Positions 32,717 to 58,859 of a DNA stretch of 64,000 nucleotides are shown piece after piece (position 1 is the stretch's first letter; each line of letters opens with the position of its first letter). Position numbers and translations under genes: made by a program. The DNA is taken from assembly GCA_018241505.1 (NCBI GenBank), contig JAFEDS010000025.1:1-64000 (forward strand), written 5' to 3'. Under the pieces are notes generated by a model. That model did not search any database, had not been told where the DNA came from, and saw nothing but the letters and a program-made list of their open reading frames with translations. The DNA is from Pseudomonadota bacterium. Its GTDB lineage: Bacteria > Pseudomonadota > Gammaproteobacteria > Steroidobacterales > Steroidobacteraceae.

Positions 32717-32721
32717 GACCT

Positions 32722-41915: not shown

Positions 41916-42375
41916 TTCCAGAGCACCAGTTGTAGTCGTTAGACTGGAATGGAATATACAACGGCGTATCGCGCTCATTGCGATTACACATGCAGCGGCC
42001 ACAGGTGGCCTTGCCGCAGCAATCATTGTACGAGATGACGTAGTCCTTGCCATCCAATGGGTTATGACAGGTTCCGACCCACGTCACCGCAGACATCTGG
42101 GTTCCCGGAGGACACGTGTCTTGAGTCCCGCCACAGCAACTGCATAGATAGCCATCGATCGCGCAATGGCGCCAATAGTCGCAGCTCGACGGGTCATCGA
42201 CTTTCTTGGCCTTAGGGTCCGGCGCCGGTGGCGTGGCACCCCGGGCGACCGGCAACAACGGCACCGTCGAAGCGCCGACCAACAGCGCACCAAGATATCC
42301 CACTACGCTGCGGCGCGACGTCCGCTTGGCCAGCGAGCGGGCTCGGCCTTCGACCAGTTGATCAAACCACTTCAT
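41854..42375 (-). CDS. aauA: TTQ amine dehydrogenase light chain (methylamine/aromatic amine dehydrogenase beta subunit)
   Basis: A 173-residue catalytic subunit with a Tat leader (TSRRSVVGYLGALLVG) and 14 cysteines in the mature part, as expected for the disulfide-knotted light chain. The two tryptophans that become tryptophan tryptophylquinone are present: Trp99 in AVTWVGTC and Trp150 in NDYNWCSGN. The catalytic-base aspartate is probably Asp118 in SYNDCCG. It oxidises primary amines to aldehydes plus ammonia in the periplasm. PaaK and an aldehyde dehydrogenase nearby favour aromatic amines over methylamine, hence the symbol. It overlaps the heavy-chain stop by four bases. Maturation genes (mauG, mauE, mauD) are absent from the window. 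Confidence 0.9.
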   Translation of the reverse strand: MKWFDQLVEGRARSLAKRTSRRSVVGYLGALLVGASTVPLLPVARGATPPAPDPKAKKVDDPSSCDYWRHCAIDGYLCSCCGGTQDTCPPGTQMSAVTWVGTCHNPLDGKDYVISYNDCCGKATCGRCMCNRNERDTPLYIPFQSNDYNWCSGNGKANVPYHCSTARIVSAAK

Positions 42376-44212: not shown

Positions 44213-45226
44213 ATGCACGCGCTCACTGAAATCGAAGCGTCGGCGCTTCCCTACCTGCCCAACCCTCGGTCGGTCCAGTCGGGACACTCGGTTGACGAAG
44301 CCACGGACGTCGTCAGCCGGAATATCTATCCCCATCGCCTGCGAACCGCGAATACCAGCGGCCAGAGCCTCATGTGCCTGACATCCGCCCTGGATCTCGG
44401 CGACTGTGCGTTAGGTTATGTGCAGTACGGGTTTGAGGTTGAGATCGACTCGGGGGTCATCGCCGAATACCAGTTGGTGAAAACCACGCTCGCCGGCCAG
44501 GGTCGCGTGACCTGCGGACCGGAGTCGGTAATCACCACGCCTCGCTCGATTGTCATGACGTCGCTGACCGAAACATCTCGCGTCATGATGTCCGCTGAAT
44601 GCCGCCACCTGACGGCCCGCGTCTGCCGCACTGCGGTCGAGCAACGGATCATGGAAAAGCTGGGGCGGCGCCTCAGCGCACCCCTCAAGTTCCACATGGA
44701 AATCCCCTCGGACTCCGACTTCGGACGGGCCTGGCATCAGCTCCTGGCGCATATCTGCAACCTGTCGGCGACCGCTCCCAAGGCGCTCGCCGCCGAGGAG
44801 GTGCGCAAACAATATTCGCGCACCATGATCGAGCTGCTGGTGCACGCAGCGCCCCACAACTATTCCGAAGAGCTGGAGCGGGGAGCGGCTGGGACCGCGA
44901 TTCCGTGGTATGTGCGCCGGGCGCGCGCCTACATACACGATCACCTGGCAGACCTGCGCTCCGTGGCCCAGATCGCCACGGCGGTCGGAATCACCCCGCG
45001 GAGCCTGCAGAACGGTTTTCGCCGGGTCTTCAACATGACCCCCGCCGAGTACCTGCGGGATATCCGCATCCAGGCCCTGCATGAATCTCTCATGCGCGCG
45101 GATCCGAGCCGCAGCGTGACCGAGCTGATGCAGGATGTCGGCATCGTCAATTTCGGGCGCTACGCGCAGTACTACCGCCGCAAGATGGGGGTCGCCCCGT
45201 CCGAAACCCTCAAGGACAGCGCCTAG
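44213..45226 (+). CDS. AraC-family activator with AraC_binding_2-type sensor domain
   Basis: A 337-residue regulator. The N-terminal sensor (about residues 60-200: CALGYVQYGFEVEIDSGVIAEYQLVKTTLAGQGRV and later SAECRHLTARV) matches the AraC_binding_2 class. The C-terminal double helix-turn-helix includes SVAQIATAVGITPRSLQNGFRRVFNMTPAEYLRD. Regulators of this class, such as FeaR, activate aromatic amine genes in other bacteria. It starts 11 bases after the TetR gene and 120 bases before the TonB receptor, so it probably activates the plus-strand operon that begins at 45347. Confidence 0.88.
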   Translation: MHALTEIEASALPYLPNPRSVQSGHSVDEATDVVSRNIYPHRLRTANTSGQSLMCLTSALDLGDCALGYVQYGFEVEIDSGVIAEYQLVKTTLAGQGRVTCGPESVITTPRSIVMTSLTETSRVMMSAECRHLTARVCRTAVEQRIMEKLGRRLSAPLKFHMEIPSDSDFGRAWHQLLAHICNLSATAPKALAAEEVRKQYSRTMIELLVHAAPHNYSEELERGAAGTAIPWYVRRARAYIHDHLADLRSVAQIATAVGITPRSLQNGFRRVFNMTPAEYLRDIRIQALHESLMRADPSRSVTELMQDVGIVNFGRYAQYYRRKMGVAPSETLKDSA

Positions 45227-45311
45227 CATTTCGTTGCGCACCGGCAACAACCGGCCGCCCCCCTGCAATTTTTTCCGATTCCGTATCGCGCGTTCGCATT
45301 GCACGCGACTA

Positions 45312-45335
45312 AGCTCCACGGAGCTTCCACGTGGA
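45312..45335 (+). promoter_or_regulatory. Palindromic elements before the amine-cluster TonB receptor
   Basis: The 120-base gap ahead of the receptor holds AGCTCC-AC-GGAGCT (45312-45325) followed directly by a perfect 10-base palindrome TCCACGTGGA (45326-45335). CTCCAC and GTGGAG also pair across the two. These overlapping dyads sit 12-35 bases before the ATG and could be an operator or a leader hairpin. The bound factor is unknown; neither element resembles the TetR site. Confidence 0.4.
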
Positions 45336-45346
45336 GTGCCAACGCA

Positions 45347-47518
45347 ATGCCTCGAATAACAATGAAGGCGCTGGCGGGGTTGTCCGCTTGCGTCTGCCTG
45401 GGGGTGCCCCCGAGTGTCTGGTCGCAGGAAAACGGCGACTCGGACAAGCTCGCCGAAATTGTCGTCACCGCGCAAAAGCGCGAGCAGAACCTGCAGGATG
45501 TCGGTACGTCCGTCACTGCGTTCGACGCCAACACTTTGCAACAACTGGGATTGAAGGATGTCACGAGCGTGACATCGCAGGTGCCGGGCCTGCAATTCAA
45601 CCAGTACGGCTCGACGGTGACCATCTACAACCTCCGCGGCGTGTCGCAGAACGACTTCAGCGACCACCAGGAGGCTCCCGTTGCCGTGTACTCCGACGAC
45701 GCCTACATCGCATCGACGGGTGCGTTGGCCGGAACCCTGTTCGACACGCAGCGGGTGGAAGTCCTCCGCGGTCCCCAGGGCACACTGTTCGGTCGCAATG
45801 CCACGGGCGGACTGATCCAGTATTTCAGCAACCAACCGACCGACCACCTGGATGGCTACCTGGATGTCACGGGCGGCAACTTCAGCCGGTTCGATTCCGA
45901 GGGCGCCATCGGCGGTCCCCTGACCGATACCCTGTCGACCCGGGCGGCCTTCGCCACCAACTACCACGACGGCTACATTACCAACGACCTGGGCGGCCGC
46001 ATCAACAATCAGCGCCAGTTCGCGGGTCGTCTGCAATTCACGTGGAAGTTCGCCGACAACGGCGAGGTCCGCCTGAAGTTGCACGGAATCAACAACGACA
46101 GTGAGGTCGCGGGCAACTATTCCTGGGCCGCCTCGGTGCCCGATGCAACGGGGCGCGGCGTGTTCAACCCCGGTGGGACCGATGGCTTCGGCTACATCAA
46201 CCCGAGCACCAGCCCGTTTCACCAGTCCGAAGACCGGCGCGGGATATTCAATCGCACGGTGTACGGCGCCACGGTGCACGCCATCTACAAGACCGATTTA
46301 TTCACAGTGACCTCGGTCACCGACTACCAGCACGTGCAGAAGCGTTACGGCGAAGATTCCGATATGTCGCCGAACCCGATCTTCAATTACGACGTGCTGT
46401 ATCACTTTCACCAGTTGTCGCAGGAATTGCGTCTGAATGGCGAAGGGGACCGGTACCGGTGGGTTGGCGGGTTCTACTACCTGCACTATGACAGCCGCGA
46501 CATCGGCACTACTTCTCTCATCGAGCCCATCGGCCTCGGGCGCGCCGACTTCAGCCTGAGCACCAGCTCGCCGTCGGTGTTTGCGCAGGGGGAATACGAC
46601 CTGCTGCCGCAGTTGACCTTTATCGCGGGCGCCCGCTACACCTACGACGACAAAAAGTTCGACTACTACTACTACTGCGAGGCCTGCGACGAGAACGTCC
46701 ACTACGTGTCGCCGCAGTTCCCGAGCGCGGCCAAGAAATTCAACATCGGCACCGGCAAGGTCGAGCTCGACTACAAGCCCACCAAGGACTTCATGGTGTA
46801 CGCGAGCTGGAACCGGGGTGCCAAGGGGGGCGGCTGGTCGGCGCCCACTTCGGGATTTGTCGACGTTGAAACGCTGCCCTACGCCATGGAGCGCCTGACC
46901 AACATCGAGGCCGGCTTCAAGTCGACCTTCTGGGACGGTCGTGCGCGCCTGAACGGCTCGATCTTCCACTACGACTACAAGAACTACCAGGGCTTCTTCC
47001 TGGACGTGGCCACGCAGGTGGTGGAGAACATCGATGCCAAGGTGAAAGGTGGCGAGCTGGAATTCTCGGTGATTCCGTTCCACGGCCTGAACGTGCAGCT
47101 CGGCGTGTCCCATCTGGAATCGATGGCCCCGCATGTTCCCACGCCGGCCGGAGATGTTGTTCCCGCAGAGCTGCCGCAGGCACCGCACTGGACCTTGAAC
47201 GCCCTGGCCCGCTACGAGTGGCCCCTGTTGGGTGGCATGGCCTCGATCGAGACCGATGCGAAATGGAACAGCCAACAGTACCTGGAGCTGATCAACGCGC
47301 CCGTCGACTTGCAGCCCTCATACGCCGTCATCAATGCTCGCGTAGGCTTCGGCAGCGTGGACGATCGTTGGCAGGTGAGTGCGTTCGTCAAGAACGCGGC
47401 TGACAAATGGTACCGCTTGTACAACCTGGACCTTTCCGGCTTCACCGGCAGCAATCAGGGAGTCTACGCTCCACCGCGCGAATACGGCCTGGAGCTGCGC
47501 TATCACTTTGGAGGTTGA
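45347..47518 (+). CDS. TonB-dependent outer-membrane receptor of the amine island
   Basis: A 723-residue receptor. The leader (from Met16-equivalent MKALAG) ends near SVWSQ, followed by LAEIVVTAQKREQNLQDVG, a plug with FDTQRVEVLRGPQGTLFGRNATGG, and a barrel ending in LELRYHFGG. The last residues are Gly-Gly after the usual aromatic, slightly unusual. The ATG at 45347 was used; 45362, at the leader itself, is an alternative. It heads an operon with aldehyde dehydrogenase, transporter, SDR, phospho-lyase and kinase, so it probably imports a larger amine-containing or aromatic substrate rather than iron. Confidence 0.92.
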   Translation: MPRITMKALAGLSACVCLGVPPSVWSQENGDSDKLAEIVVTAQKREQNLQDVGTSVTAFDANTLQQLGLKDVTSVTSQVPGLQFNQYGSTVTIYNLRGVSQNDFSDHQEAPVAVYSDDAYIASTGALAGTLFDTQRVEVLRGPQGTLFGRNATGGLIQYFSNQPTDHLDGYLDVTGGNFSRFDSEGAIGGPLTDTLSTRAAFATNYHDGYITNDLGGRINNQRQFAGRLQFTWKFADNGEVRLKLHGINNDSEVAGNYSWAASVPDATGRGVFNPGGTDGFGYINPSTSPFHQSEDRRGIFNRTVYGATVHAIYKTDLFTVTSVTDYQHVQKRYGEDSDMSPNPIFNYDVLYHFHQLSQELRLNGEGDRYRWVGGFYYLHYDSRDIGTTSLIEPIGLGRADFSLSTSSPSVFAQGEYDLLPQLTFIAGARYTYDDKKFDYYYYCEACDENVHYVSPQFPSAAKKFNIGTGKVELDYKPTKDFMVYASWNRGAKGGGWSAPTSGFVDVETLPYAMERLTNIEAGFKSTFWDGRARLNGSIFHYDYKNYQGFFLDVATQVVENIDAKVKGGELEFSVIPFHGLNVQLGVSHLESMAPHVPTPAGDVVPAELPQAPHWTLNALARYEWPLLGGMASIETDAKWNSQQYLELINAPVDLQPSYAVINARVGFGSVDDRWQVSAFVKNAADKWYRLYNLDLSGFTGSNQGVYAPPREYGLELRYHFGG

Positions 47519-47522
47519 GAAC

Positions 47523-48935
47523 ATGACGGGCTTTTCGTTAACCATCGGTGGCAGAGCAGCGCCGACCACCAAGACTTTCAACGTACTCAACCCGGTTGAC
47601 GAGAGCGTCGTCGCGGCGTGTCCCGAAGGCACGGTCGCCCTGGTGGATGAAGCGGTCGCCAGCGCCCGCAAAGCATTCAAATCCTGGGCGGCCCTGCCCG
47701 ATGCCGAGCGCGTAGCCAAGCTGATGGCGATTGCCGATCTCATTGAGAAGCATCACCCGGAGCTGTCGCAGCTCATCACCCGCGAGCAGGGCAAGACCCA
47801 GAGCGGGCCGGGAGCGAACCTGGAAGTGGGGGGCGCTGTTGCCTGGACTCGCGCCACCGCCAGCCTGTCGTTGCCCGAACAGACCATCCAGGACGACGCC
47901 CAGGGCAAGATTGTCATGCGGCGCAAGCCCGTTGGTGTGGTTGCATCCATCACGCCATGGAACTGGCCGATGATGATCGCCGTGTGGCACATCATGCCTG
48001 CCTTGCGGGTCGGCTGTACGGTCGTCATCAAGCCCTCCCCGTTCACACCGTTGTCGACCTTGCGCATGGTCGAGCTCATGAACCAGGTTCTGCCGCCCGG
48101 CGTGATCAACGCCGTGACCGGTGGCGCTGATGTTGGAACACACCTCGTGAATCACCCGGACGTCAACAAGGTCGTGTTTACGGGTTCGATTGCCACCGGC
48201 AAGAAGGTCATGGAAGGGGCGGCCCACACGCTCAAGCGGGTAACTCTCGAGTTGGGAGGCAATGACGCGGGCATCATTCTGCCGGGAACGAACATCGATC
48301 CGTTGCTGGAGAAGCTCTTCTGGGGCTGCTTCATCAATGCCGGCCAGACCTGCGCGGCCCTGAAGCGCCTGTACGTTCACGAAAGTCAGTACGAGGAGGT
48401 GGTGCAGAAGTTCGCCGCCTACGTGGCGAAGATCCCGGTGGGGAACGGTCTCGACCCCCAGAACCTGATCGGGCCAGTCGCCAACAAGATGCAATACGAC
48501 AAGGTCAGCGGCCTGGTCGAAGACGCCCGCAACAGCGGCGCGAAGATTGTGGTCGGCGGCAATCCTGACAAAAAGCCGGGCTACTTCTATCCGTTGACGG
48601 TCATTGCCGAGGCGACGGACGGCATGCGCGTGGTCAAGGAAGAGCAATTCGGGCCCGTGATTCCAATTGTGAAGTACAAGACCGTCGAGGAAGCGCTTAC
48701 ACGGGCCAATTCACTGGACGTCGGTCTCGGCGGCTCGGTCTGGGGGAACGATCCCCAGGAAGCGGCCCGCTATGCGAGCCAGCTCGAGTGCGGCACGGCC
48801 TGGGTCAATCAGCACGGCAACCTGCATCCCATGGCGCCTTTCGGTGGCGTAAAGTGCTCAGGTATCGGCGTGGAATTCAACGTCGATGGATTGAAGGAAT
48901 ACACCACCGTGCAAGTCGTAAACGTCGCTCTCTAG
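47523..48935 (+). CDS. Aldehyde dehydrogenase (probable arylacetaldehyde dehydrogenase)
   Basis: A 470-residue NAD(P)-dependent aldehyde dehydrogenase with TPWNWPM (144-150), VFTGSIATGK (218-227), ELGGND (Glu243 general base) and NAGQTCAA (Cys277 nucleophile). Located four bases after the TonB receptor stop; GGAGG lies before the ATG. Both amine routes inferred for this island end in an aldehyde, and PaaK in the same island takes the corresponding acid, so phenylacetaldehyde or a hydroxylated form is the most likely substrate. The sequence alone would also fit succinate-semialdehyde or other aldehydes. Confidence 0.9.
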   Translation: MTGFSLTIGGRAAPTTKTFNVLNPVDESVVAACPEGTVALVDEAVASARKAFKSWAALPDAERVAKLMAIADLIEKHHPELSQLITREQGKTQSGPGANLEVGGAVAWTRATASLSLPEQTIQDDAQGKIVMRRKPVGVVASITPWNWPMMIAVWHIMPALRVGCTVVIKPSPFTPLSTLRMVELMNQVLPPGVINAVTGGADVGTHLVNHPDVNKVVFTGSIATGKKVMEGAAHTLKRVTLELGGNDAGIILPGTNIDPLLEKLFWGCFINAGQTCAALKRLYVHESQYEEVVQKFAAYVAKIPVGNGLDPQNLIGPVANKMQYDKVSGLVEDARNSGAKIVVGGNPDKKPGYFYPLTVIAEATDGMRVVKEEQFGPVIPIVKYKTVEEALTRANSLDVGLGGSVWGNDPQEAARYASQLECGTAWVNQHGNLHPMAPFGGVKCSGIGVEFNVDGLKEYTTVQVVNVAL

Positions 48936-48941: not shown

Positions 48942-50162
48942 ATGAGCTCACCTGCACCGTCGGTCGACCGGCGCGGCCTGATTGCCGCCATCCTGGTCGG
49001 CGTGATCGGGCCCGAGGTGTTCATTGTCCAACCCGGCTTCGTGCAGGGGCTGGTCCAGCACCTCGGTTTCGATGATCGAAGCGCGGGATACGCCGCTTCG
49101 ATCGAGGTGTGGGGGATCACCGCCACCACGGTGTTGATGACTTTCTTCGCGCACCATTTCAACTGGCGCAAGGTCATCAGCGTCTCGCTGATTCTCGTGG
49201 CCGTCAGCAATTTCGCGTGCATTGTAGTGCACGACAAGAGCCTGTTTCTGGCGCTGCGTTTCGTGGCGGGGCTCGGCTGCGGCAGCCTCATTTCATTGAG
49301 CTTTACGACGGTCGGCCTGACCAGCAACCCGGACAGGAACTTCGGCTACCTGATCATGTGGGTGCTGCTCTACGGTGCTGTTGTGTTGTTTGCCATGCCG
49401 GCGGCGTTCGCAGTCAGCGGCATGAGCGGGCCGCTCTTGTTCTTTGCACTGTTCCCGCTCACCGCGTTGCCGATGGTCAAGAGCTTTCCGGTGAGCGGCG
49501 AGACCGTGGCTGCTGTCGAGGCCGACGCGGTCAACCTTTCGAATGTGCTGAAAGGTTCCGCGCTGGCGGCGATGTTTGCCTATTTCATTGCGCAGGGCGT
49601 GGCCTGGGCGTACCTGTTCCTGATTGGTACCGCGGGCGGATTGTCCGAGCAGAAAGTTGCCAACGCGCTCACCCTGTCGCAGTTCGCAGGTGTTGCCGGT
49701 GCGCTGTTGCCGGCCATGGTGGGCTCGAGGTTCGGGCGCTGGCGGCCCTTGTCGATCGGCATCTGCGGCGGCGCGGTCGCCCTGGTGTTTCTGATCGGAC
49801 GCTTCGAATATCTGCCCTTCACGCTCTGGGTCTGCGTGTACAACTTTTTCTGGAACATGACACACCCCTTCCTGCTCGGCTCCATGGCGAGCTTCGACAG
49901 GCGCGGCCGGGTAGTTGTGTATGCCGTGGCGCTGCAGATGTTGGGGCTCGCTATCGGCCCGGCGCTCGCGGCCAGCGTGATCTCACCTGAACACTATGAC
50001 CGCGTGAACTGGCTGGCCATCGGCTTCTTCATGGTGAGCTGGATCTGCATTCTGCCGCCGGTGCTGTCACAACAGCGCAGCACCCAGGCCACCAAACTCG
50101 GTTGGGTGCAACGCATGCGTTGCACGGGTGTCCGCGCGAGCGGCACCCTGGATCGACGGTGA
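48942..50162 (+). CDS. Major facilitator superfamily transporter
   Basis: A 406-residue inner-membrane protein with about 12 hydrophobic helices. The loop between helices 2 and 3 (FAHHFNWRKV) fits the MFS motif-A position in a degenerate form, and FRFVAGLGCGS-like sequence lies in helix 4. The last 25 residues are hydrophilic and basic. It is six bases downstream of the aldehyde dehydrogenase. It presumably moves the amine, acid or a conjugate across the inner membrane; direction and substrate are unknown. Confidence 0.87.
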   Translation: MSSPAPSVDRRGLIAAILVGVIGPEVFIVQPGFVQGLVQHLGFDDRSAGYAASIEVWGITATTVLMTFFAHHFNWRKVISVSLILVAVSNFACIVVHDKSLFLALRFVAGLGCGSLISLSFTTVGLTSNPDRNFGYLIMWVLLYGAVVLFAMPAAFAVSGMSGPLLFFALFPLTALPMVKSFPVSGETVAAVEADAVNLSNVLKGSALAAMFAYFIAQGVAWAYLFLIGTAGGLSEQKVANALTLSQFAGVAGALLPAMVGSRFGRWRPLSIGICGGAVALVFLIGRFEYLPFTLWVCVYNFFWNMTHPFLLGSMASFDRRGRVVVYAVALQMLGLAIGPALAASVISPEHYDRVNWLAIGFFMVSWICILPPVLSQQRSTQATKLGWVQRMRCTGVRASGTLDRR

Positions 50163-50195
50163 GCAGGCCGGATGGCCTGCGCAAAAGGAGAACTC

Positions 50196-50993
50196 ATGAT
50201 CGGTGATCTCAAAGGCAAGGTCGCAATTGTCACGGGCGCGGGCCAGGGCATTGGCGAAGGCATTGCGCGCTGCTTTGCCAAGGCCGGCGCGAAGGTGCTC
50301 ATAGCCACGCGCACGGCAAAAAATGGCCAGGCGGTCGCGGACTCGATTGTCAAGGACGGCGGCGTCGCCAGCCTGCTGCAGACGGATGTAGGCCAGCACG
50401 ACCAGGTCAAACGGACCGTGGAGCATGCGGTAAAGACCTACGGCCGGCTCGACATCGTCGTGCACAACGCCGCGGTCTATCCGGTGTTGCCCATCGAAGA
50501 GTTGAGCGACGCCGATCTCGACATGACATTGTCCGTGAATCTCAAGGCCGGGTTCTGGTTCATCCAGGCCGCTTTGCCGCACCTTCGCAAGCAGGGTGGC
50601 GGCCGCTTCCTGTTCACCTCATCCGTTACGGGACCCAACGTCGCCATGCCGGGTACCGCACACTATGCGGCCTCCAAGAGCGGCATGAACGGACTGATCA
50701 GAACGGCGGCGCTGGAGTTCGCCCGCGACAACATCACCGTCAATGGCGTGGAGCCGGGTTACATCCGCACGCCCGCCATGGAAGCTCTGGGCAGTGAGGC
50801 GGAAATTGCCGAAATGGCCAAGTGCATTCCACTGGGCAAGCTCGGCAATCCCATCGACATCGCCAACACGATGCTGTTCCTGGCCTCCGACGAGGCCGCG
50901 TATATCACCGGTCAGACAATCGTGGTCGATGGCGGATCGACGCTGCCGGAAAGCCCTGTCGTGCTGGACGCCTACTACAACTCAAAGAAATGA
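50196..50993 (+). CDS. Short-chain dehydrogenase/reductase (classical SDR)
   Basis: A 265-residue classical SDR: TGAGQGIG (residues 13-20), NAA in HNAAVYP, the catalytic serine in SSVTG, and YAASK. AAGGAG lies eight bases before the ATG, decisive for the start at 50196. ATGA overlap with the phospho-lyase gene. In an operon for hydroxylated amines it could oxidise a side-chain alcohol or reduce a keto-amine; the substrate is not determinable from sequence. Confidence 0.88.
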   Translation: MIGDLKGKVAIVTGAGQGIGEGIARCFAKAGAKVLIATRTAKNGQAVADSIVKDGGVASLLQTDVGQHDQVKRTVEHAVKTYGRLDIVVHNAAVYPVLPIEELSDADLDMTLSVNLKAGFWFIQAALPHLRKQGGGRFLFTSSVTGPNVAMPGTAHYAASKSGMNGLIRTAALEFARDNITVNGVEPGYIRTPAMEALGSEAEIAEMAKCIPLGKLGNPIDIANTMLFLASDEAAYITGQTIVVDGGSTLPESPVVLDAYYNSKK

Positions 50994-52249
50994 CCGCCCA
51001 ATCACTCATTGAGCGCCGGTTCAACGTCCTCGGGCGCCACTCTCCCCTCTTCTATGAGAAGCCCCTGCAGCTCGTTCGGGGTGAAGGCGTCTGGGTCTGG
51101 GATGCTGACGGCAAACGCTATCTGGATGCTTACAACAATGTTCCCCACGTCGGGCATTGTCATCCCCGGGTAGTCGAAGCGCTGCGCCGCCAGGCGGGAA
51201 TTCTGAACAGCCACACCCGCTACCTCGATGAAACTGTCATCGACTACGCAGAGCATCTGCTGTCGACGTTTCATCCCACGTTGCAGCGGGTATTTCTGAC
51301 TTGCACGGGAAGTGAGTCCAACGAGCTGGCATTGCGCATTGCCCGCGAGACTACCGGCCACATGGGTGTCATTGCCACTGACTTCGCGTATCACGGCAAT
51401 ACAGCCGCCGTATCGCAAATCAGCTCGGTATTTACCCCCGCCTCCAAGCGCGGTCCGTATGTCCGGTATGTACCCGTTATCGACCCCTACAGACAACGCA
51501 ACGGGCGTCGCGACGAGCAGCTCGCCGACTTCTATATCCAGCAACTCCAGCAAGCCATCGATGACTTGGCAAGGAATGGCGTGAAACTGGCCGCGGTGCT
51601 CTTCTGCACGGCGTTCTCCAGTGAAGGACTGCCGGATATCCCGAAGACCTACTTCCCGAAAGTCGCTGCAGCCGTGCACGCGGCGGGTGGCCTCGTGATT
51701 GCCGATGAAGTGCAAGCTGGCTTCGGACGTTTCGGTTCGCACATGTGGGGTCACGCCCGGCACGACATGGTTCCCGACATCGTCACCATGGGCAAGCCGA
51801 TGGGCAACGGTCATCCCCTGGCGGGAGTCGTCACGACTGCCGCGCTGATGGAAACCTTCACCAGCCAGAACATGTATTTCAACACGTTCGGCGGGAATGA
51901 AGTATCGGCCGCAGTGGGCCATGCCGTTTTGAACGTGTTGCGCGATGAGAATCTGTTGGCGAATGCGCTGACCGTTGGCGAGTACGTGCTGACCGGAATG
52001 CGCCGGTTACAGCAGAAGTATCCCATCATTGGCGATGTTCGCGGCCAGGGTATGTTCTTCGCTGTCGAAATCGACGACGCGGCGAGAACGAAGAAAATTG
52101 TAAATCGCATGCGCGAGCGTGGCGTGCTCATCAGCCGGATCGGCCCCCACGACAATATTCTGAAGATCCGGCCGCCGATGGTATTCACCAAGGACAATGC
52201 CGACGTGTTGCTCAACACTTTGGACAGTGTCCTGTCTGAGCTTGCCTGA
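50990..52249 (+). CDS. Class III PLP enzyme, probable amino-alcohol phosphate phospho-lyase (ETNPPL/AGXT2L-like)
   Basis: A 419-residue class III aminotransferase-fold enzyme. Lys269 in TMGKPMGNGHP is the PLP lysine and Asp239 in IADEVQAGFGRFG holds the pyridine ring. Its resemblance is not to GABA transaminases but to ethanolamine-phosphate and phosphohydroxylysine phospho-lyases: NNVPHVGHCHP (49-59), the SHTRYLDETVIDYAE region, YFNTFGGN in place of the usual substrate loop, and IGPHDNILKIRPPM near the end. Such enzymes eliminate phosphate and ammonia from beta-phospho-amines, leaving an aldehyde. The next gene encodes a kinase of the right type, overlapping by one base. Transamination remains the alternative. 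Confidence 0.85.
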   Translation: MTAQSLIERRFNVLGRHSPLFYEKPLQLVRGEGVWVWDADGKRYLDAYNNVPHVGHCHPRVVEALRRQAGILNSHTRYLDETVIDYAEHLLSTFHPTLQRVFLTCTGSESNELALRIARETTGHMGVIATDFAYHGNTAAVSQISSVFTPASKRGPYVRYVPVIDPYRQRNGRRDEQLADFYIQQLQQAIDDLARNGVKLAAVLFCTAFSSEGLPDIPKTYFPKVAAAVHAAGGLVIADEVQAGFGRFGSHMWGHARHDMVPDIVTMGKPMGNGHPLAGVVTTAALMETFTSQNMYFNTFGGNEVSAAVGHAVLNVLRDENLLANALTVGEYVLTGMRRLQQKYPIIGDVRGQGMFFAVEIDDAARTKKIVNRMRERGVLISRIGPHDNILKIRPPMVFTKDNADVLLNTLDSVLSELA

Positions 52250-53235
52250 TGGACGCGCTGCTGCAGAGACTCGTATCGCTCGTGGAGACCCGCTGGCCGC
52301 TACAGTGCGCCTCGATTCAACCCATCAAGGTTCGCGAGAATGCAGTGTATGCCGTGCATTTGCGCGACGGCGGCAAGGTAGTTTTGCGAGTCCATCGCTG
52401 CGGCTATCACTGCGATGCGGCCTTGCAGTCAGAACGCACGTGGATGCAGGCGCTCGAAGAGCACGGTATCGAGGTCCCGCGCCACGTGTTGTCCCACGGT
52501 GGGCGGTCTTTTGAGAAGTCCTTTATTGAAGGTTTCGACGGCGAACGCCAGGTCGACGTGTTCCACTGGATTCAAGGACAACAGTTGGGCTCGGTTGAGC
52601 AAGGGGTGGCGCTTCAGGGCGCCAGTGTCGCCGACGTCTATCGCCAGGTGGGACAGCTCGCAGCGCGACTTCACAACCAGTCATCGGCGTGGCGCGCACC
52701 AGCAGGGTTCCTGCGGCACGCATGGGATGCCGAAGGCCTTGCCGGTGAGCGTCCGTTCTGGGGCCGCTTCTGGGACCTCGCGGCACTAACCGAATCGCAG
52801 CGCCGGCTGTTTGTTGAGTTGCGGCAAGCGCTGTGGCGGGGCCTGAGGGAATTTGGCACCGGCGCCGACCGATACGGCCTGATTCATGCGGATCTCGTAC
52901 CGGAAAACATCCTCGTGGACGGGGAGGCACTGCAGGTCATCGACTTTGATGATGCCGGTTTCGGCTGGCACCTGTTTGAGATCGCCACGTCCCTGTACTT
53001 CATTCGCCGCGATTCGATCTACGAACGAGCGCGGGATGCGGTCGTGGAAGGCTACCGGCGGCACAGACCCCTGTCAGAAAGCCACCTGGCGCTGCTGCCG
53101 ATGTTTCTGGCGGCCCGTGGCAGCACCTATCTCGGCTGGGTCCATACACGGGCTGGCGAGCCCGTGGCCGAAGAATTGACGCCCGCGTTGGTTGAGCTGG
53201 CAGTCGCGGCGGCTGAAGACTACCTCAACGGCTAG
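52249..53235 (+). CDS. APH/choline-kinase-family phosphotransferase, probable amino-alcohol kinase
   Basis: A 328-residue small-molecule kinase with a catalytic loop HADLVPENIL (Asp215, Asn220), metal-binding IDFDDAG (Asp232/Asp234) and an N-terminal VLRVHR lysine/arginine strand. This family includes hydroxylysine kinase, ethanolamine kinase and aminoglycoside phosphotransferases. Start and previous stop share one base (TGATG). Coupling to a phospho-lyase-like gene mirrors the HYKK and AGXT2L2 relationship in animals, so the expected reaction is ATP-dependent phosphorylation of an amino-alcohol hydroxyl. It ends the operon and overlaps the convergent SDR by four bases. Confidence 0.85.
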   Translation: MDALLQRLVSLVETRWPLQCASIQPIKVRENAVYAVHLRDGGKVVLRVHRCGYHCDAALQSERTWMQALEEHGIEVPRHVLSHGGRSFEKSFIEGFDGERQVDVFHWIQGQQLGSVEQGVALQGASVADVYRQVGQLAARLHNQSSAWRAPAGFLRHAWDAEGLAGERPFWGRFWDLAALTESQRRLFVELRQALWRGLREFGTGADRYGLIHADLVPENILVDGEALQVIDFDDAGFGWHLFEIATSLYFIRRDSIYERARDAVVEGYRRHRPLSESHLALLPMFLAARGSTYLGWVHTRAGEPVAEELTPALVELAVAAAEDYLNG

Positions 53236-53960
53236 TACACGATACTGCCGACCGAAGTACCGCCGCAGACAAACAAAGTCTGGCCGGTGATGAAGCCTGC
53301 CTCTGGAGCGACGAAAAACAGGATGGCCCTGGCCACGTCCTCCGGCAGCCCCAGGCGCTTTACAGGGATCGATTGCACGATCGCCGGGATGCGCGGGCTG
53401 TCCTTCGGAATGATCTCGTGGAAGACCTCCGTGGCTTCTATGGGGCCCGGCGCGATGACATTCGAGGTGATGCCATCCGGACCCAGCTCGAGCGCCCAGG
53501 TGCGCGACAGACCCAACATCGCGGCCTTGGTCGCCGAATATGCCGTGCGCTGCGCGAGGCCGAGCACGGCTCGCGACGAGACGAGGACAATCCGGCCGAA
53601 GTGGCGCGCCCTCATGGCAGGCAACACGGCCTGCACCAGGGCAATCGGCGCCGCGATGTGCAAGTTGGCCAGGGTCTGATAATCGTCCTCGGTAACGTTC
53701 TCCAACGCTTGTTGCCTCACGGCGCCGGCGTTGTGAATGACCGTGGTGATGGGGTACTGCTCGGCGAGGTCGTGGACAGTTGCCGCGGTCGCGCGGTTAT
53801 CAGACAGATCTACCTGCACCTGCTGGAGGTTGGGCGCGGTAAAGGTACCCGGTTTGCGATCCAGGCAGATGACCCGGTGTCCCGCGGCGAGCAGCTTCTC
53901 GCAGGTCGCGGCCCCGATTCCCGAGCTGCCGCCGGTCAACAAAGTGTAGGTGTCGTTCAT
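53232..53960 (-). CDS. Short-chain dehydrogenase/reductase
   Basis: A 242-residue classical SDR with TGGSSGIG (9-16), NAG in HNAGAVR, the catalytic serine in VSSRAVLG and YSATK. It is last in the six-gene Rieske-ligase-thiolase operon and overlaps the DUF35 gene as ATGA. In a side-chain or ring-degradation pathway it could dehydrogenate a cis-diol or a beta-hydroxyacyl-CoA. The aromatic-diol option is attractive because a Rieske oxygenase is in the operon and no other diol dehydrogenase is present. Confidence 0.88.
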   Translation of the reverse strand: MNDTYTLLTGGSSGIGAATCEKLLAAGHRVICLDRKPGTFTAPNLQQVQVDLSDNRATAATVHDLAEQYPITTVIHNAGAVRQQALENVTEDDYQTLANLHIAAPIALVQAVLPAMRARHFGRIVLVSSRAVLGLAQRTAYSATKAAMLGLSRTWALELGPDGITSNVIAPGPIEATEVFHEIIPKDSPRIPAIVQSIPVKRLGLPEDVARAILFFVAPEAGFITGQTLFVCGGTSVGSIVY

Positions 53961-54337
53961 TGGGCCACCAGCACTGCATAACCCTCATCATTGAGCTTCA
54001 CGGACACCTGGACGTCGGCGGGCGCCGCGGGCACTGACTTTCCAATGTAGGCCAATGCAATCGGGCCACTCTGCAGTTGCACCAGGCCGATCCGGAGCGG
54101 GAGCTCGGTTGAGGCAAGATGGCTGTGATGCAACGTCGTCTCGGAGATCATGCGCCCGCCTCCGGGTTGCAGCGTCCAATCCAACTCCACAGAAAGGCAA
54201 CGGGCGCAGGCATCGCGGGGCGGATACTGCACGGCGCCGCATTTCCTGCATTGTTGCAGCTCAAACCGGCCCGCCGCGGCAGCGGCCGTCATGCGCAAAG
54301 CTGCCCGGCTATGCCGTTGCAAGGATAGTTGCTCCAC
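53957..54337 (-). CDS. DUF35 OB-fold/zinc-ribbon acyl-CoA-associated protein
   Basis: A 126-residue DUF35 protein: a rubredoxin-like zinc ribbon CRKCGAVQYPPRDACARC (two CxxC pairs, residues about 30-47) followed by an OB fold (GGGRMISETTLHH to KLNDEGYAVLVAQ). DUF35 proteins partner thiolase-like enzymes as CoA-substrate chaperones or aldolase subunits. A GTG at 54337 gives a 29-base overlap with the thiolase-like gene; an ATG at 54292 would avoid overlap and still keep the zinc ribbon. Start therefore uncertain. Confidence 0.85.
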   Translation of the reverse strand: MEQLSLQRHSRAALRMTAAAAAGRFELQQCRKCGAVQYPPRDACARCLSVELDWTLQPGGGRMISETTLHHSHLASTELPLRIGLVQLQSGPIALAYIGKSVPAAPADVQVSVKLNDEGYAVLVAQ

Positions 54338-55454
54338 AACACAGGCCTCGATCGTAATTGATCATGCCGAATCCGCTCACGAGCGCGACCCTGGCGTCCA
54401 CCACCGGCTTTCCCAGCGCGGCTCCCGTCAACTGCCGGACAGCATCCGTCATTCCCAGGAAACCGCCCGCCGCACCCGCCTGTCCGCAGGACAACTGGCC
54501 TCCCGAGGTGTTGTGCGGAAAGGTGCCGTCATTGGTAAAGGTCTGCTCGCGAATGAAGAGGGGACCCTCGCCCTTGCCACAGAAGCCCAGATCCTCCATT
54601 TGCAGCACACTGATGACCGGATAGTCATCGTAAGTCTGCAACAGATCGATCTGCTCGTGCCTGACCCCTGCCCGCGCAAACAACTCGTCCCGATCGAGAG
54701 CCCAGCCGCCGCGCATCTGGATTGGATCGTCCGCAAAGGCATTGTGACGCTCGCAAGTCGACAACACCCTGACTGACCTCAGCCCGAGATCCCGGGCGCG
54801 CTGCTGCGTCATCACCAGGAATCCTTCCGCGCCTGCGCAGGGCATGACGCAATCGAACAGGTGGATGGGATCCGCGATAGGTCGGGCGTTCAAATACTGT
54901 TCCAACGTCAGCGGCTTGCGCAGCAGCGCTGATGGGAAACTGAGCGCATTCTGGCGCTGTGAAACACACAGTTTGCCGAAATCCTCCCGGGTCGCGCCAT
55001 ACTCCCGCATGTAGTACGACGTCAGCAACGCGAAGCTGGCGTTGGGACCGCCCGCCCCGTAGGGCCACACGGCATCCTGCGAAAATCGGCTGAAGTCGCC
55101 CAGCGTTGCTTCGAACGCAGCCGGCGAGTTTGTGTCCGCGCCGACGCAGGCTACAACTCGAGCATCGCCCGCCTCTACCGCGCGTACTGCGCGTCGCAGC
55201 GCTACGATTCCCGCGGCCCCCCCCATCGGAATGTGATCGAGCCAGCGCAGCGACAACCCCAGGTGCTGAGTCAGGCCGACGGCCGTATCCGGTGCGAGTG
55301 TGAAGCTCGAGAAGCACAAGCCGTCAATGGCGGCTTTCTCCAGGTGTGCGGCCTGGAGCATTTCAGCGAGTGTCCGCGCCGCAAACCAGTGTGCACTATT
55401 GTCGCTGAAGCGCGTGTAGGGAATGGTGATCGGACAGGTGATGACGGCGGTCAT
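54309..55454 (-). CDS. Thiolase-like protein lacking the nucleophilic cysteine (SCP-x/Ltp2-type)
   Basis: A 381-residue thiolase-fold protein. Where catalytic thiolases have a CGSG-type loop near residue 80, this one has GGAAG, so the acyl-accepting cysteine is missing; the late GLCCGATIL segment and a HNTSGGQLSCGQ loop remain. This pattern is known from SCP-x/Ltp2-like proteins, which with a DUF35 partner do retro-aldol cleavage of acyl-CoA side chains or related chemistry. The DUF35 gene is directly coupled, and ATGA overlap links it to the CoA ligase. It is probably an acyl-CoA aldolase or acyltransferase rather than a thiolase. Confidence 0.82.
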   Translation of the reverse strand: MTAVITCPITIPYTRFSDNSAHWFAARTLAEMLQAAHLEKAAIDGLCFSSFTLAPDTAVGLTQHLGLSLRWLDHIPMGGAAGIVALRRAVRAVEAGDARVVACVGADTNSPAAFEATLGDFSRFSQDAVWPYGAGGPNASFALLTSYYMREYGATREDFGKLCVSQRQNALSFPSALLRKPLTLEQYLNARPIADPIHLFDCVMPCAGAEGFLVMTQQRARDLGLRSVRVLSTCERHNAFADDPIQMRGGWALDRDELFARAGVRHEQIDLLQTYDDYPVISVLQMEDLGFCGKGEGPLFIREQTFTNDGTFPHNTSGGQLSCGQAGAAGGFLGMTDAVRQLTGAALGKPVVDARVALVSGFGMINYDRGLCCGATILATA

Positions 55455-57088
55455 GACACGCGCTTTTTCAGTGACCGCAGGTCCACCGTGGGCTCGCGGC
55501 CAACGCGCTCCCGCGCCAGCTCACCCAAGCGGGCGCGTTGGATCTTCTCCGTGGTCGTCAACGGCAGCTTCTTACAGAAAGCGACATATCCGGGTGCTTT
55601 GTAATAAGCAAGCTTCTGCAGGCAGAACTCAACCAACTCCCGGGCCAATGCGGGGGGATCCTGCACTGCCCCACGGGCAACCACGCAGGCCATGACCTCA
55701 TCGCCTCGAACCTCGTCGGGCACCGCAGCGACTCCCACGCTGGCAACGAGAGGATGTTGCAGCAGCACACCCTCCACTTCAACGGCGGAGATGTTTTCAC
55801 CACTGCGGCGGATGACATTCTTCTTACGGTCCACGAAGTGAAAGTCACCGTCGGAATCGAAGAAAACAATGTCACCTGTGTGGAAGTAGGCGTTCTCCCA
55901 CGCTTGTGCAGTGGCCTCGGGGTCCTTCAGGTACTCGCGGAAGAAGCCGAACCGTGTTCGTGCGCCGTGGGAACGTACCAACAACTCGCCGTGCTCGCCC
56001 GGCTCCGCATCCCGACCATCCGGTGTAACGACGCGGCAGTCGATTTTGTTGGACGGCCGCCCGAAGCAGGCGGTACCGATCTTGCGCGGCTCGCGGCTGG
56101 CGATGATCGCGGCCCCGCAGCCGGTCTCCGTCATTGCCCACGCCTCGATCAGCGGGAAGCCGAAGCGGTCCTCAAAAGAGGCATGTAGCCGGGGACTCAC
56201 GCCCGCCCCGAAGCCGAATCGAATCCGGTGTTGCTTGTCAGAGGCCGACGGGTCGCTGCCCAACAACATTGCCGGCATCACTCCCAGATAGTGAAGGACG
56301 GTGGCACGCGAATCGCGGACACTGTTCCACCAGGTTCGAGGATGGAAACGGTCCAATGGAATGATGCAACCGCCTGTGAGCAGCATGACCATGGTGGAGC
56401 AGGCCATGGCATTCATGTGGGTCATGGGCAGCGGGGTCAGAAGGCGCTCGGCGCCCTCTTCCAGGCGACAGAGGTCGCCGATACCGGCATACCAGGTGCC
56501 GGCCCAGAGAAAGTATTCGTTGGTGAGGACGCAGCCCTTGGGGCGGCCTGTTGTGCCTGAGGTGTAGAGCAGCGCGCATTCGGTGTTGATGTCGGGAGGT
56601 GGCGCTGCCGCGCGCGCGGCGAGGCCCGGGGCGGCGTCAGTGCCGCTTGCGGCGCTGAAGTCACTCTCCGTGCTCACCGCCAGCTCATGCTTGATCCGCG
56701 ACGCCGCGCGTCGCAACTCCTCGACTCGCGCCGGCGGAACAACCGCGGCCACCATCTCGGAATGGCCGATTACGTACTCCAACTCCGCTTCGCGCCAGTC
56801 GGTATTCAAGGGCACCGTTGACACGCCCAGCGAATTCAACGCCAGCCAGTGGAAAAACATCGCCGGGCGGTTCTCGAGCATCAGGCCCACGCGCTGCGTC
56901 GCACGCAGGCCAGCGGCAGCATACTTCTCAGCCAGTGACGCTATCTCGTCCGCAGCTTCGGCGTATGTATAACTCCGCGCCTGGATACGATAGTGCTGGG
57001 CCGTCTCCGGCAGGATCGACAGAAACTCCCGCTCCCGATGACGCGCGAGTGTCCGTAGAAACGCTTCGTAGACAGTGCCGCTGTCCAT
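55451..57088 (-). CDS. AMP-forming acyl-CoA synthetase
   Basis: A 545-residue ANL-superfamily ligase. LLYTSGTTGRPKGCVLT (residues 173-189) is the ATP loop, EAWAMTETGCG the adenine/carboxylate motif and GDIVFFDSDGDFHFVDRKKNVIRRSGENIS the hinge; the catalytic lysine is in TTTEKIQR near the C-terminus. It activates a carboxylic acid to the CoA thioester in the cytosol. It lies two bases after the Rieske beta gene and overlaps the thiolase-like gene (ATGA). The acid could be a cinnamate-like, branched or steroid side-chain substrate; not decidable here. Confidence 0.88.
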   Translation of the reverse strand: MDSGTVYEAFLRTLARHREREFLSILPETAQHYRIQARSYTYAEAADEIASLAEKYAAAGLRATQRVGLMLENRPAMFFHWLALNSLGVSTVPLNTDWREAELEYVIGHSEMVAAVVPPARVEELRRAASRIKHELAVSTESDFSAASGTDAAPGLAARAAAPPPDINTECALLYTSGTTGRPKGCVLTNEYFLWAGTWYAGIGDLCRLEEGAERLLTPLPMTHMNAMACSTMVMLLTGGCIIPLDRFHPRTWWNSVRDSRATVLHYLGVMPAMLLGSDPSASDKQHRIRFGFGAGVSPRLHASFEDRFGFPLIEAWAMTETGCGAAIIASREPRKIGTACFGRPSNKIDCRVVTPDGRDAEPGEHGELLVRSHGARTRFGFFREYLKDPEATAQAWENAYFHTGDIVFFDSDGDFHFVDRKKNVIRRSGENISAVEVEGVLLQHPLVASVGVAAVPDEVRGDEVMACVVARGAVQDPPALARELVEFCLQKLAYYKAPGYVAFCKKLPLTTTEKIQRARLGELARERVGREPTVDLRSLKKRVS

Positions 57089-57090
57089 GA

Positions 57091-57552
57091 CTACAGCAGC
57101 AGTTGAATCGACGGCAGCGCCGCTTCGCGATTCAGCAGCTCGATTTTCTTCATCTGGATCTTCCAGCCGCCGCCGTCACCCTGCAGATGATGAAAAGCTG
57201 TGCCGGCCAGGATGACCTGCTGATCGAGCTGCGCCTCCGCATAGATAAAGGGCGTACGCAGAACGCACTTCCCCTGCGCGCTTTCAATGATGGTGGGCTG
57301 CTGAAGCACGTGCTGGCAGAAGCTGGGTTGCTGCTGTGAGAACGCATTGGGATGCCGCAACCGCTCGATACGAACCTTCAACAGCAGCTTGTCTTCATAG
57401 AAAAGCGACGTATGCGCCTCACCGATCGGTTGCTCGCGCGTCAACGGCATCCAATACAGCGCATCGTCCGCAAACAACTCATACCACTCATCAAAGCGCT
57501 TTTCGTCAATCAGCCGCGCTTCGTGATAAACGAAATCAATGGGTGAGCTCAT
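57091..57552 (-). CDS. Aromatic-ring-hydroxylating dioxygenase beta subunit
   Basis: A 153-residue NTF2-fold small subunit: DFVYHEARLIDEKRFDEWYELFADDALYWMPL (5-36) is the classic beginning, followed by DKLLLKVRIERLRHPNAFSQQ and a closing KKIELLNREAALPSIQ strand. It forms the alpha3-beta3 hexamer with the next gene's Rieske subunit. ATGA overlap with the alpha gene. No substrate information can be taken from this subunit. Confidence 0.93.
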   Translation of the reverse strand: MSSPIDFVYHEARLIDEKRFDEWYELFADDALYWMPLTREQPIGEAHTSLFYEDKLLLKVRIERLRHPNAFSQQQPSFCQHVLQQPTIIESAQGKCVLRTPFIYAEAQLDQQVILAGTAFHHLQGDGGGWKIQMKKIELLNREAALPSIQLLL

Positions 57553-58859
57553 GTTGCCGCGCCTTCTGAACGGGTCATGAGGTCGACCCAGGCGCGATAC
57601 TGGCCGCGCATGGGCGCTTCGTTGGTGGCGCCATAGGTACCCGCATTTGTCTCGTCTGCGCAGAAATTGCGATGCAGGCTGACCCAGTCCGAGCTCGCCG
57701 AGCTCAACCCTTCCTGGATCGCACGATAGCAGTGCAGATCATCGTGCCCCACCATGGAAGTCGGCGCATTGATCAACCTCGAGTACGTCGCCGTACGCGC
57801 CAGCATTTCGTCCGGCGCACCTGCCAAACGGAATGTCCAGCTCTCAATGATCGTCTTGTCTACCGCCACGGGACGTGCCACGCGGATGGTTTGAATGGCA
57901 CCTTTGATGGTCAGGCTCGGATAGTAGACCGTGTTGTGCCGGGCCTCGGCGAGAATGGCCTTGGCCCGCTCTTCCCCATAGGCCGCGAACATGCGCTGCT
58001 CGTACTCACCCACACTGGAGTATTTGGAGTGGATTGAGAAGTTGACACCCGTATAGCTGTGACCGTTGGGGTACACGCGGACGCCCATCTTCTCGAAGAA
58101 CTCGTAGTCATTTACGAAGGGGGTGAATTGTTCAATGACCATCGGCTTGGGCGAGCCCGCCGCAGTGGCGTCCCAAATACGCTTGGCCGTACCGGCGGAT
58201 GACTCATGCGCGACCATCGGGTGCATGGCATCGTTCAGGTTCTCGACGTACATCTTCCAATTGCAGTCGTGCATGTAGCGCAGAGGCGCGCCCGCCACCT
58301 CCAATCGCCCTTCCGGCGACCGGTCCACCATGTTGTCAATGGAACTGAGGGACTCGCCGAAGAATTCCTGGAATCCAATGCCCCGCGCGGCCAGCCGGAC
58401 AAACACAAAGCCGCGATAGTTGTGTGAAGTCAGCTCGCCAATGCCGTGCAGAGCCTGCGCCTGTGCCGCCTCGCTGTAGCCACCCTTGAGAGGGACTGAA
58501 CGCAAGGTGCCATCCAGGCGATAGATCCAGCCGTGGTAAGGACAGCGAAGCAGCCCGCCCTGACACTTGCCCCGCTGGGCGCTGACCAACTTGGTGCCCT
58601 TGTGGGCACAGCGATTGGGCAAAACGCGCACCTTGGAATCATTGCCGCGCACCATGATCACCGGCTCGCGGCCGATCTGGGCGCTGTAGAAATCACCGGG
58701 TTTGGGCACCTGGCTGTCGTGCCCCACGTACACCCAGGCATTACGCCACAAGTGATTCATTTCCAGATCGAAAACGGCCGGATCGACGTACACGTCCCGG
58801 TGGATACGGTCCGGACGTACCAGCTCGCGCACGGAAGCAGGATCAGCGTAGCGATTCAT
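57549..58859 (-). CDS. Aromatic-ring-hydroxylating dioxygenase alpha subunit (Rieske/mononuclear iron)
   Basis: A 436-residue catalytic subunit. Rieske ligands are Cys84 and His86 (NRCAHKG) and Cys106 and His109 (CPYHGW). The mononuclear iron is held by His213 and His218 (DAMHPMVAHES), with Asp210 as the inter-subunit electron bridge. It resembles benzoate/anthranilate-type oxygenases. It starts the operon; its promoter region shares the GGCTACTATTAT element with other genes of the window. No reductase or ferredoxin is encoded nearby, so electrons must come from proteins encoded elsewhere. Confidence 0.93.
   Translation of the reverse strand: MNRYADPASVRELVRPDRIHRDVYVDPAVFDLEMNHLWRNAWVYVGHDSQVPKPGDFYSAQIGREPVIMVRGNDSKVRVLPNRCAHKGTKLVSAQRGKCQGGLLRCPYHGWIYRLDGTLRSVPLKGGYSEAAQAQALHGIGELTSHNYRGFVFVRLAARGIGFQEFFGESLSSIDNMVDRSPEGRLEVAGAPLRYMHDCNWKMYVENLNDAMHPMVAHESSAGTAKRIWDATAAGSPKPMVIEQFTPFVNDYEFFEKMGVRVYPNGHSYTGVNFSIHSKYSSVGEYEQRMFAAYGEERAKAILAEARHNTVYYPSLTIKGAIQTIRVARPVAVDKTIIESWTFRLAGAPDEMLARTATYSRLINAPTSMVGHDDLHCYRAIQEGLSSASSDWVSLHRNFCADETNAGTYGATNEAPMRGQYRAWVDLMTRSEGAAT

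Follow-up and report, generated by a model that had tools for sequence, protein, structure and literature searches.

Class III pyridoxal 5'-phosphate (PLP)-dependent phospholyases act on compounds of the type H2N-CH2-CH(R)-O-phosphate, in which R is hydrogen, methyl or an amino acid chain; PHYKPL, whose substrate in this group is phosphohydroxylysine, is one such enzyme. The solved structure 5g4i is taken here to be the Arthrobacter A1RDF1 phospholyase, an O-phosphoethanolamine lyase. In the RMM module, a short-chain dehydrogenase/reductase (SDR), an APH kinase and a phospholyase presumably act on a beta-hydroxy amine, and in PRK06148 and PRK06149 a kinase, a peptidase and an aminotransferase are fused. 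For aromatic amines, octopamine dehydratase (EC 4.2.1.87) and synephrine dehydratase (EC 4.2.1.88) were reportedly described by Cuskey in 1987; to our knowledge these are direct dehydrations for which no gene has been described. The subject here is a pair of overlapping genes, a phospholyase followed by an APH-type kinase, at 50990-53235 in a 64,000-nucleotide stretch (the window) of contig JAFEDS010000025.1, assembly GCA_018241505.1, from a gammaproteobacterium of the family Steroidobacteraceae. The pair probably constitutes an ATP-dependent kinase/phospholyase deamination shunt for primary beta-hydroxy-arylethylamines, the nature of the substrate being inferred. Phenylethanolamine and octopamine are candidate substrates, possibly together with norepinephrine.

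The first gene (50990-52249, plus strand, ATG to TGA) encodes P0001, a protein of 419 residues assigned by Pfam, PDB matches, tree and residues to the PLP-dependent phospholyases of the class III aminotransferase family. It matches Aminotran_3 (PF00202) with 258.5 bits. Its top PDB match is 5g4i, deposited as 'PHOSPHOLYASE' (E 3.5e-128; 49% identity across 426 aligned columns), and the second is 6tor, 'Ethanolamine-phosphate phospho-lyase' (E 3.9e-104); the E-value then falls to about 5e-52, for dialkylglycine decarboxylase. At the sequence level, the resemblance to the solved phospholyases is far beyond chance. Three motifs that the original prediction had read as phospholyase hallmarks are found at residues 49-59, 296-303 and 384-397, where 5g4i has 2, 2 and 4 differences. 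By contrast with these matches, P0001 does not reach the cut-offs of the PbfA model NF049939 (203 bits vs 525) or of PRK06148 (496.8 bits vs 1128).

In a lyase tree of 106 rows, 98 phospholyase-type rows, including 5g4i, 6tor and proteins with kinase and lyase in one frame, are split from 8 transaminase-type rows (5 from the window's own genome and 3 from other loci) by a branch of length 1.71 with a starred support of 100. The tree is of a quick kind and midpoint-rooted, the 5g4i branch is long and long branches meet among the transaminase rows. Copies or parts from the own genome (L005, L007, L009, L010) and most secondary aminotransferases of the loci were excluded, and neither this tree nor the kinase tree contained a reference PHYKPL or hydroxylysine kinase. 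A phylogeny had been one of the checks proposed in the original prediction: the PLP enzyme groups with 5g4i and 6tor (ETNPPL), apart from the included transaminases, and the contrary placement is absent. On this evidence P0001 is assigned to the phospholyase branch, not to the transaminases.

Individual residues point the same way. The lyase-then-kinase rows almost always have Asn49, Asn50, Arg77, Asn111, Asn273, Lys392 and Arg394, whereas three aligned transaminases of the own genome have other residues there. Arg77, Lys392 and others among them are thus lyase-specific in this alignment, and at most candidates for phosphate binding. Lys269 and Asp239 are invariant across 31 aligned sequences, Lys269 being presumably the PLP lysine and Asp239 likewise taken to have its familiar role.

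The second gene (52249-53235, plus strand) encodes P0002, a 328-residue small-molecule kinase of the APH family, assigned by Pfam APH (94.6 bits), PDB matches, motifs and the kinase tree. It carries IHADLVPEN and IDFDD, the HxD...N and DFD of the APH family, which we take to be catalytic motifs. The best solved relative is 6ef6 (E 1.4e-46), deposited as an aminoglycoside phosphotransferase and presumably the kinase that acts on aminopropanol in the RMM microcompartment of Mycobacterium. In a FastTree tree, 79 kinases of the lyase-then-kinase type group together (support 91, unstarred). The structure 6ef6 belongs to a neighbouring group (support 92, unstarred), which also holds three kinase-then-lyase types as well as L052 and L081, two loci in which the kinase is upstream of the lyase, and the remaining kinase-then-lyase and fused types sit past a branch with a starred support of 100. 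In Aliamphritea spongicola the kinase matches as two pieces in different frames (L043, 11340-12268). Base 52249 is common to the lyase and kinase genes, within TGATG by their open reading frame coordinates; the one-base overlap with an APH-family kinase gene, noted earlier for this DNA, is thus confirmed together with the family itself. Judged by sequence relationships, lyase/kinase chemistry is very likely for the pair.

The neighbourhood of the pair across genomes points to the kind of substrate. Related loci were taken as the best 80 of 587 confirmed stretches in the genome_contigs scan (49-70% identity), with flanks examined up to 10 kb and neighbouring genes only partly annotated. Proteins from annotated plasmids and from the window served as queries for three classes of aromatic marker: tryptophan tryptophylquinone (TTQ) amine dehydrogenase, paa genes and hpa genes. 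In 70 of the 80 loci the gene directly after the lyase is a recognised kinase, and in 6 the kinase is upstream (L052, L081, L088, L098, L104, L106); the 4 loci in which no kinase was recognised (L090, L097, L101, L108) are also without markers. Markers occur in 29 of the 80 (TTQ 4, paa 5, hpa 21, one locus falling in two classes). This repeated linkage upholds the earlier claim that the pair is set among aromatic amine genes. The TTQ-bearing loci belong to a Gammaproteobacteria metagenome-assembled genome (MAG), a Sphingomonas, a Woeseiaceae MAG and Pseudomonas akapageensis. All marker loci fall within those with the kinase directly downstream (29/70, or 29/74 when the 4 loci without a recognised kinase are added). 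They span 17 of 45 genus-level or record-name groups, many rhizobial loci being close copies, and on the lyase tree the marker label requires at least 16 gains or losses. An SDR homologue (at least 45% identity) lies immediately upstream of the lyase in 7 of the 80 loci.

The control was a set of relatives built differently (with the kinase upstream, with both parts in one open frame or, in one case, with no kinase found), and markers were found in 0 of 23: the 6 kinase-upstream loci, 8 plasmid loci (L135-L142) and 9 loci of the class sample described below (L149-L157, with L152 lacking a recognised kinase). The Fisher P is 1.3e-4 for 29/74 vs 0/23, a value that is only a guide, as the loci are related. 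Marker matches in L104, L139 and L142 stayed below the identity thresholds, and two other-architecture loci beyond the 23 (L187 and L188) are likewise without markers. The expectation model assumes one copy per marker per 4 Mb genome and a span of 22 kb. Six of the plasmid loci (L135-L139, L141) form a kinase-before-lyase lineage on plasmids of Sinorhizobium, Klebsiella, Rahnella, Agrobacterium, Azospirillum and Paracoccus, with a GntR regulator in five of the six and ABC transporter genes in most; its substrate is probably not aromatic.

Individual loci illustrate the linkage. The plasmid survey covered 11 of 381 matching PLSDB records, whose gene table is incomplete, and the three lyase-then-kinase plasmids described in detail are the top of the ranking, not a random choice. 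On the plasmid of Mesorhizobium sp. AR07 the order is permease, lyase, kinase, paaX, pcaF, paaABCDE, paaZ; within this incomplete annotation the lyase is the sole amine-removing gene beside paaABCDE, and unannotated SDR-like pieces in two frames precede the permease. On a Rhizobium binae plasmid, lyase and kinase lie between hpaB and hpaF-hpaE-hpaD...hpaH-hpaI, and the Shinella PSBB067 plasmid carries a PLP decarboxylase, hpaD, hpaE, hpaF, a second aminotransferase, lyase and kinase. The annotation in the three lyase-then-kinase plasmids reads aspartate aminotransferase family protein or class III aminotransferase-fold enzyme. The Pseudomonas insulae locus contains paaK, paaABCDE, paaZ, permease, lyase and kinase, with no TTQ or second-aminotransferase marker among genes that are not all annotated, and genome G244 has SDR, lyase, kinase, aldehyde dehydrogenase and the TTQ chains.

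Other genes also recur beside the pair. In rhizobial loci (including L048, L049, L057 and L132), a second class III aminotransferase, a Tm-1-like ATP-binding protein and a HAD hydrolase accompany it, often together with hpa genes. Five pairs (L134, L064, L093, L084, L057) have a PLP decarboxylase gene nearby, in L134, L084 and L057 together with hpa genes, which hints that the source may be a beta-hydroxy aromatic amino acid.

The proposed pathway has three steps. First, the APH-type kinase would phosphorylate the beta-hydroxyl of an aryl amino alcohol. Second, as expected from its family, the PLP enzyme would take the primary amine as an external aldimine and eliminate phosphate, after which the freed enamine would hydrolyse to an arylacetaldehyde and ammonia. 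Third, the aldehyde dehydrogenase of the operon would convert the arylacetaldehyde into an arylacetate, which could enter the phenylacetyl-coenzyme A (CoA) route (PaaK in the window, paaABCDE elsewhere) or 4-hydroxyphenylacetate meta-cleavage (the hpa cluster). The TTQ amine dehydrogenase would yield the same aldehydes from amines without the hydroxyl. The linked lower pathways suggest that R is phenyl or hydroxyphenyl, and an aryl R suits the same chemistry; an aryl amino alcohol is a candidate substrate of the pair that is well supported by context. Synephrine, which the original prediction had included as a direct substrate, is an N-methylated secondary amine and would first need demethylation, because the PLP aldimine needs a primary amine; its direct use is unlikely and was rejected on this chemistry. 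According to the PbfA paper, PLP-dependent enzymes normally act on substrates with a primary amino group (PMC8154272).

The window's own genome (46 contigs, 93.9% complete, 5.67% contamination) carries genes of both lower pathways. The window PaaK is its sole phenylacetate-CoA ligase over cut-off, and paaABCDE and paaZ lie away from the window contig, on contig C42. An hpa meta-cleavage cluster begins about 0.7 kb after the window end (own contig C17, 64722-74179; L190:4723-14180). In it HpaB, HpaG-N, HpaG-C, HpaE, HpaH and HpaI are over cut-off, HpaI narrowly; a flavin reductase is present, with no HpaC model over cut-off. The HpaD position, between HpaE and HpaH, is taken by a class III extradiol dioxygenase that stays under the cut-offs of its matching models. 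No TIGR02295 HpaD is over cut-off in the own genome. A phenylethanolamine-only reading that had been drawn from this absence was dropped in view of the hpa cluster past the window end, and both ring types are candidates. Judged by these gene sets, the bacterium probably consumes both unsubstituted and para-hydroxylated arylacetates.

The same genome contains five TTQ heavy-chain matches (window contig, C4, C7, C8), with MauE-type genes near the C4 and C7 copies and none matched on the window's contig. It also contains a second homologue of the kinase-lyase kind, in which a single open frame of 823 codons holds both parts (C5:65009-67324); aromatic markers are absent within 20 kb of it. A lyase at E 1e-120 or better occurs in 14 of 119 relatives, own genome included. 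Among the six closest others, G406 and G418, in the window's genus, keep the arrangement TTQ-araC-tonB-aldh-mfs-sdr-lyase-kinase; the G418 contig, which is also that of L034 of the 80 loci, ends inside the TTQ heavy chain. In G423 the pair is accompanied by acyl-CoA ligase, thiolase-like and second-SDR homologues, without TTQ or the first SDR. The locus in G373 is cut by a short contig, and in G427 (the L033 contig) and G430 no TTQ was found within the stretch examined.

A class sample of 369 genomes, separate from the 80 loci, contains the lyase in 14 genomes (at E 1e-100 or better) and the TTQ heavy chain in 13. Four genomes have both: the own genome, G244, G120 (on different contigs) and G314 (a kinase-then-lyase type, on another contig). 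Several results here and elsewhere weigh against an aromatic substrate. In the class sample, 2 of 19 TTQ heavy-chain places are near the pair, one of them being the window, and beyond the window a marker is found in 1 of 6 lyase-then-kinase loci. Among further relatives of the window's family the figure is 1 of 4 (L184; not L181, L185 or L186), and 51 of the 80 loci show no marker in the stretch examined, partly from contig ends. The hpa and paa genes of the own genome could serve TTQ products alone, e.g. from tyramine, and the second class III aminotransferase of the hpa-linked rhizobial loci could be the amine-removing enzyme there. Finally, the nearest solved relatives of the two proteins, 5g4i and 6ef6, are presumably enzymes of aliphatic substrates (O-phosphoethanolamine and aminopropanol, respectively).

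These two relatives and the 51 loci also favour a pair that acts on small aliphatic amino alcohols, such as ethanolamine or 1-amino-2-propanol, in an aromatic neighbourhood that is incidental. The SDR-lyase-kinase set, moreover, resembles the RMM aminopropanol set. Such a pair is nevertheless unlikely, given the recurrent paa, hpa and TTQ linkage with its repeated gains or losses, the presence of PaaK and hpa within the same island and the place of 6ef6 in a different kinase subclade. In addition, no bacterial microcompartment (BMC) shell gene (PF00936) was matched in the own genome (93.9% complete), whereas the E. coli and Synechococcus controls were positive, and membership of an RMM microcompartment is rejected.

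Another ring-bearing amino alcohol, derived from a plant phenolic amide or from a decarboxylated beta-hydroxy aromatic amino acid, might instead be the true substrate, phenylethanolamine and octopamine being only analogues of it. Genes for histone deacetylase (HDAC)-like deacylases recur near the pair (window, L039, L041, L082, L143), the decarboxylase gene stands near five rhizobial-type pairs, and in the window the pair is followed by genes for an acyl-CoA ligase, a thiolase-like protein and a Rieske protein. However, the lower pathways seen use plain phenylacetate or hydroxyphenylacetate, and this explanation is quite improbable.

Degradation of 5-hydroxylysine by a hydroxylysine kinase and a phosphohydroxylysine lyase would involve an identical class of chemistry, and some kinase-then-lyase relatives do lie beside amino-acid ABC transporters, one of them annotated lysine/arginine/ornithine in Klebsiella. 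Those relatives, however, have the kinase first, fall outside the window's group of 79 kinases and belong with the architectures in which markers number 0 of 23, and an amino-acid transporter is absent among the annotated genes of this operon; the explanation is hardly tenable. Equally implausible is an ordinary omega-transaminase beside an unrelated kinase: NCBIfam models and plasmid annotations do name such proteins aminotransferases, but the tree, the signature residues and the PDB ranking speak against this identity for P0001, the kinase is directly downstream in 70 of the 80 loci, and some homologues, including one in the own genome, combine kinase and lyase in a single open frame.

If the pair does act on aryl amino alcohols, a broader proposal follows, on which the evidence is evenly poised: the lyase-then-kinase family could supply the genes so far missing for the bacterial breakdown of octopamine, norepinephrine and phenylethanolamine, and 'octopamine dehydratase' could be a two-step kinase/phospholyase reaction. 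The route would then extend across alpha- and gammaproteobacteria, often on rhizobial plasmids; members of the family also occur in betaproteobacteria, actinobacteria and Chloroflexi. No paper assigning genes of a lyase/kinase pair of this kind was found in the open-access literature, which is weak evidence, most subscription journals being outside its scope. The catalytic kind is already known, and the aromatic substrate class would be new. Soil and root bacteria could then draw on hydroxylated aromatic amines from plants and animals, and the kinase/phospholyase strategy, known for aliphatic amino alcohols, would reach neurotransmitter-like aromatic amines as well. Aminotransferase annotations of such proteins would be corrected. 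The pair offers testable genes for an activity that was reportedly described decades ago without genes, and the rhizobial hpa-linked and paa-linked versions are open to simple knock-out and growth experiments.

The genes ahead of the pair lie on the same strand. They comprise a TonB-dependent receptor that opens the putative operon (45299-47518, start codon uncertain), an aldehyde dehydrogenase (47523-48935, ATG at 47523 after GGAGG), a major facilitator superfamily (MFS) transporter recognised by Pfam (48942-50162) and an SDR (50172-50993), all on the plus strand. The aldehyde dehydrogenase is PRK13473- and StyD-like, under both cut-offs, and is a probable arylacetaldehyde dehydrogenase; the MFS transporter is a probable importer of the substrate. 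The SDR, known from sequence matches, has 6ci8 and 6ci9 as its top solved relatives, which were deposited as 3-oxoacyl-ACP reductase and are presumably the RMM aminopropanol dehydrogenase. As in the RMM aminopropanol pathway, it may possibly invert stereochemistry or reduce an amino ketone. Its gene overlaps that of the lyase by four bases (ATGA), which the original prediction had not noted. Successive genes from receptor to kinase lie 4, 6 and 9 bases apart, and the last two junctions are overlaps of 4 bases and 1 base; with such close spacing, they look like a single operon. Upstream of it are genes for a TetR-type regulator (43551-44201, plus strand) and an AraC-type regulator (44213-45226, plus strand; AndR-like, below cut-off), both found by model match. 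A promoter scan was uninformative: it gave no sigma-70-like site, where shuffled sequences predict 2.2, and 14 terminator-like sites, where they predict 8.0.

A divergent row on the minus strand contains the TTQ amine dehydrogenase heavy chain (42372-43499) and light chain (41854-42375, by model match), a c-type cytochrome (41469-42053), PaaK phenylacetate-CoA ligase (40195-41472, model over cut-off) and a flavoprotein like spermidine dehydrogenase SpdH (38217-40121; 7d9i, E 5.4e-52; twin-arginine-like start). The lyase/kinase pair shares an island with the TTQ enzyme but probably belongs to a different transcription unit, since this row is divergent. The label 'aromatic amine operon' in the original prediction owes more to gene context than to sequence. 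The heavy chain scores 191.7 bits against aromatic amine dehydrogenase (AADH) and 183.1 against methylamine dehydrogenase (MADH), the light chain 167.3 and 170.7, respectively; the enzyme is under both NCBIfam MADH cut-offs and roughly equidistant from AADH and MADH, so that sequence does not settle its type. The cytochrome, a weak Pfam match (E 0.00018), is the likely electron acceptor of the TTQ enzyme; the start of its open reading frame overlaps the light chain, and the true start is therefore probably further in. An 80% identical copy of the SpdH-like flavoprotein adjoins the lyase/kinase module in L033 (3284-5194).

Further genes lie on both sides of the island. Next to its TTQ side is a gamma-glutamyltransferase (36019-37746, TIGR00066 over cut-off), for which a role in handling gamma-glutamyl-amines is possible, and on the same side 30496-35595 includes a radical SAM protein with an SBP56-like protein nearby. 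After the pair, on the opposite strand, 53232-58859 holds an SDR, a thiolase-like protein, an acyl-CoA ligase and a Rieske ring-hydroxylating dioxygenase. A histone-deacetylase-family amidohydrolase is found at 60347-61450, and its counterparts near the pair in L039, L041, L082 and L143 show 42-52% identity; it might release the amine from an N-acyl form, e.g. a plant phenolic amide.

With the class III PLP phospholyases (5g4i and 6tor, ETNPPL), P0001 shares family, clade and signature residues; their known substrates are phosphoethanolamine and phosphohydroxylysine, whereas the context of P0001 is aromatic. The Mycobacterium RMM aminopropanol module is similar in that the window kinase and SDR have 6ef6 and 6ci8, respectively, as their best matches among solved structures. 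It differs in its shell, for which no gene was found in the window's genome, in its kinase, which falls in a neighbouring group, and in its metabolic outlet, which is propionaldehyde use there and aromatic lower pathways here. PRK06148 and PRK06149 have the same two catalytic parts, as does the one-frame homologue on contig C5 of the own genome, but the window genes are separate and the one-frame forms sit on other tree branches. PbfA is likewise a class III PLP enzyme annotated as a transaminase that carries out a 1,2-elimination; it eliminates water, not phosphate, and needs no kinase. Octopamine and synephrine dehydratases (EC 4.2.1.87 and 4.2.1.88) achieve the same net conversion of a beta-hydroxy arylethylamine into an arylacetaldehyde; theirs is described as a direct dehydration, whereas a phosphorylated intermediate is proposed for the window pair.

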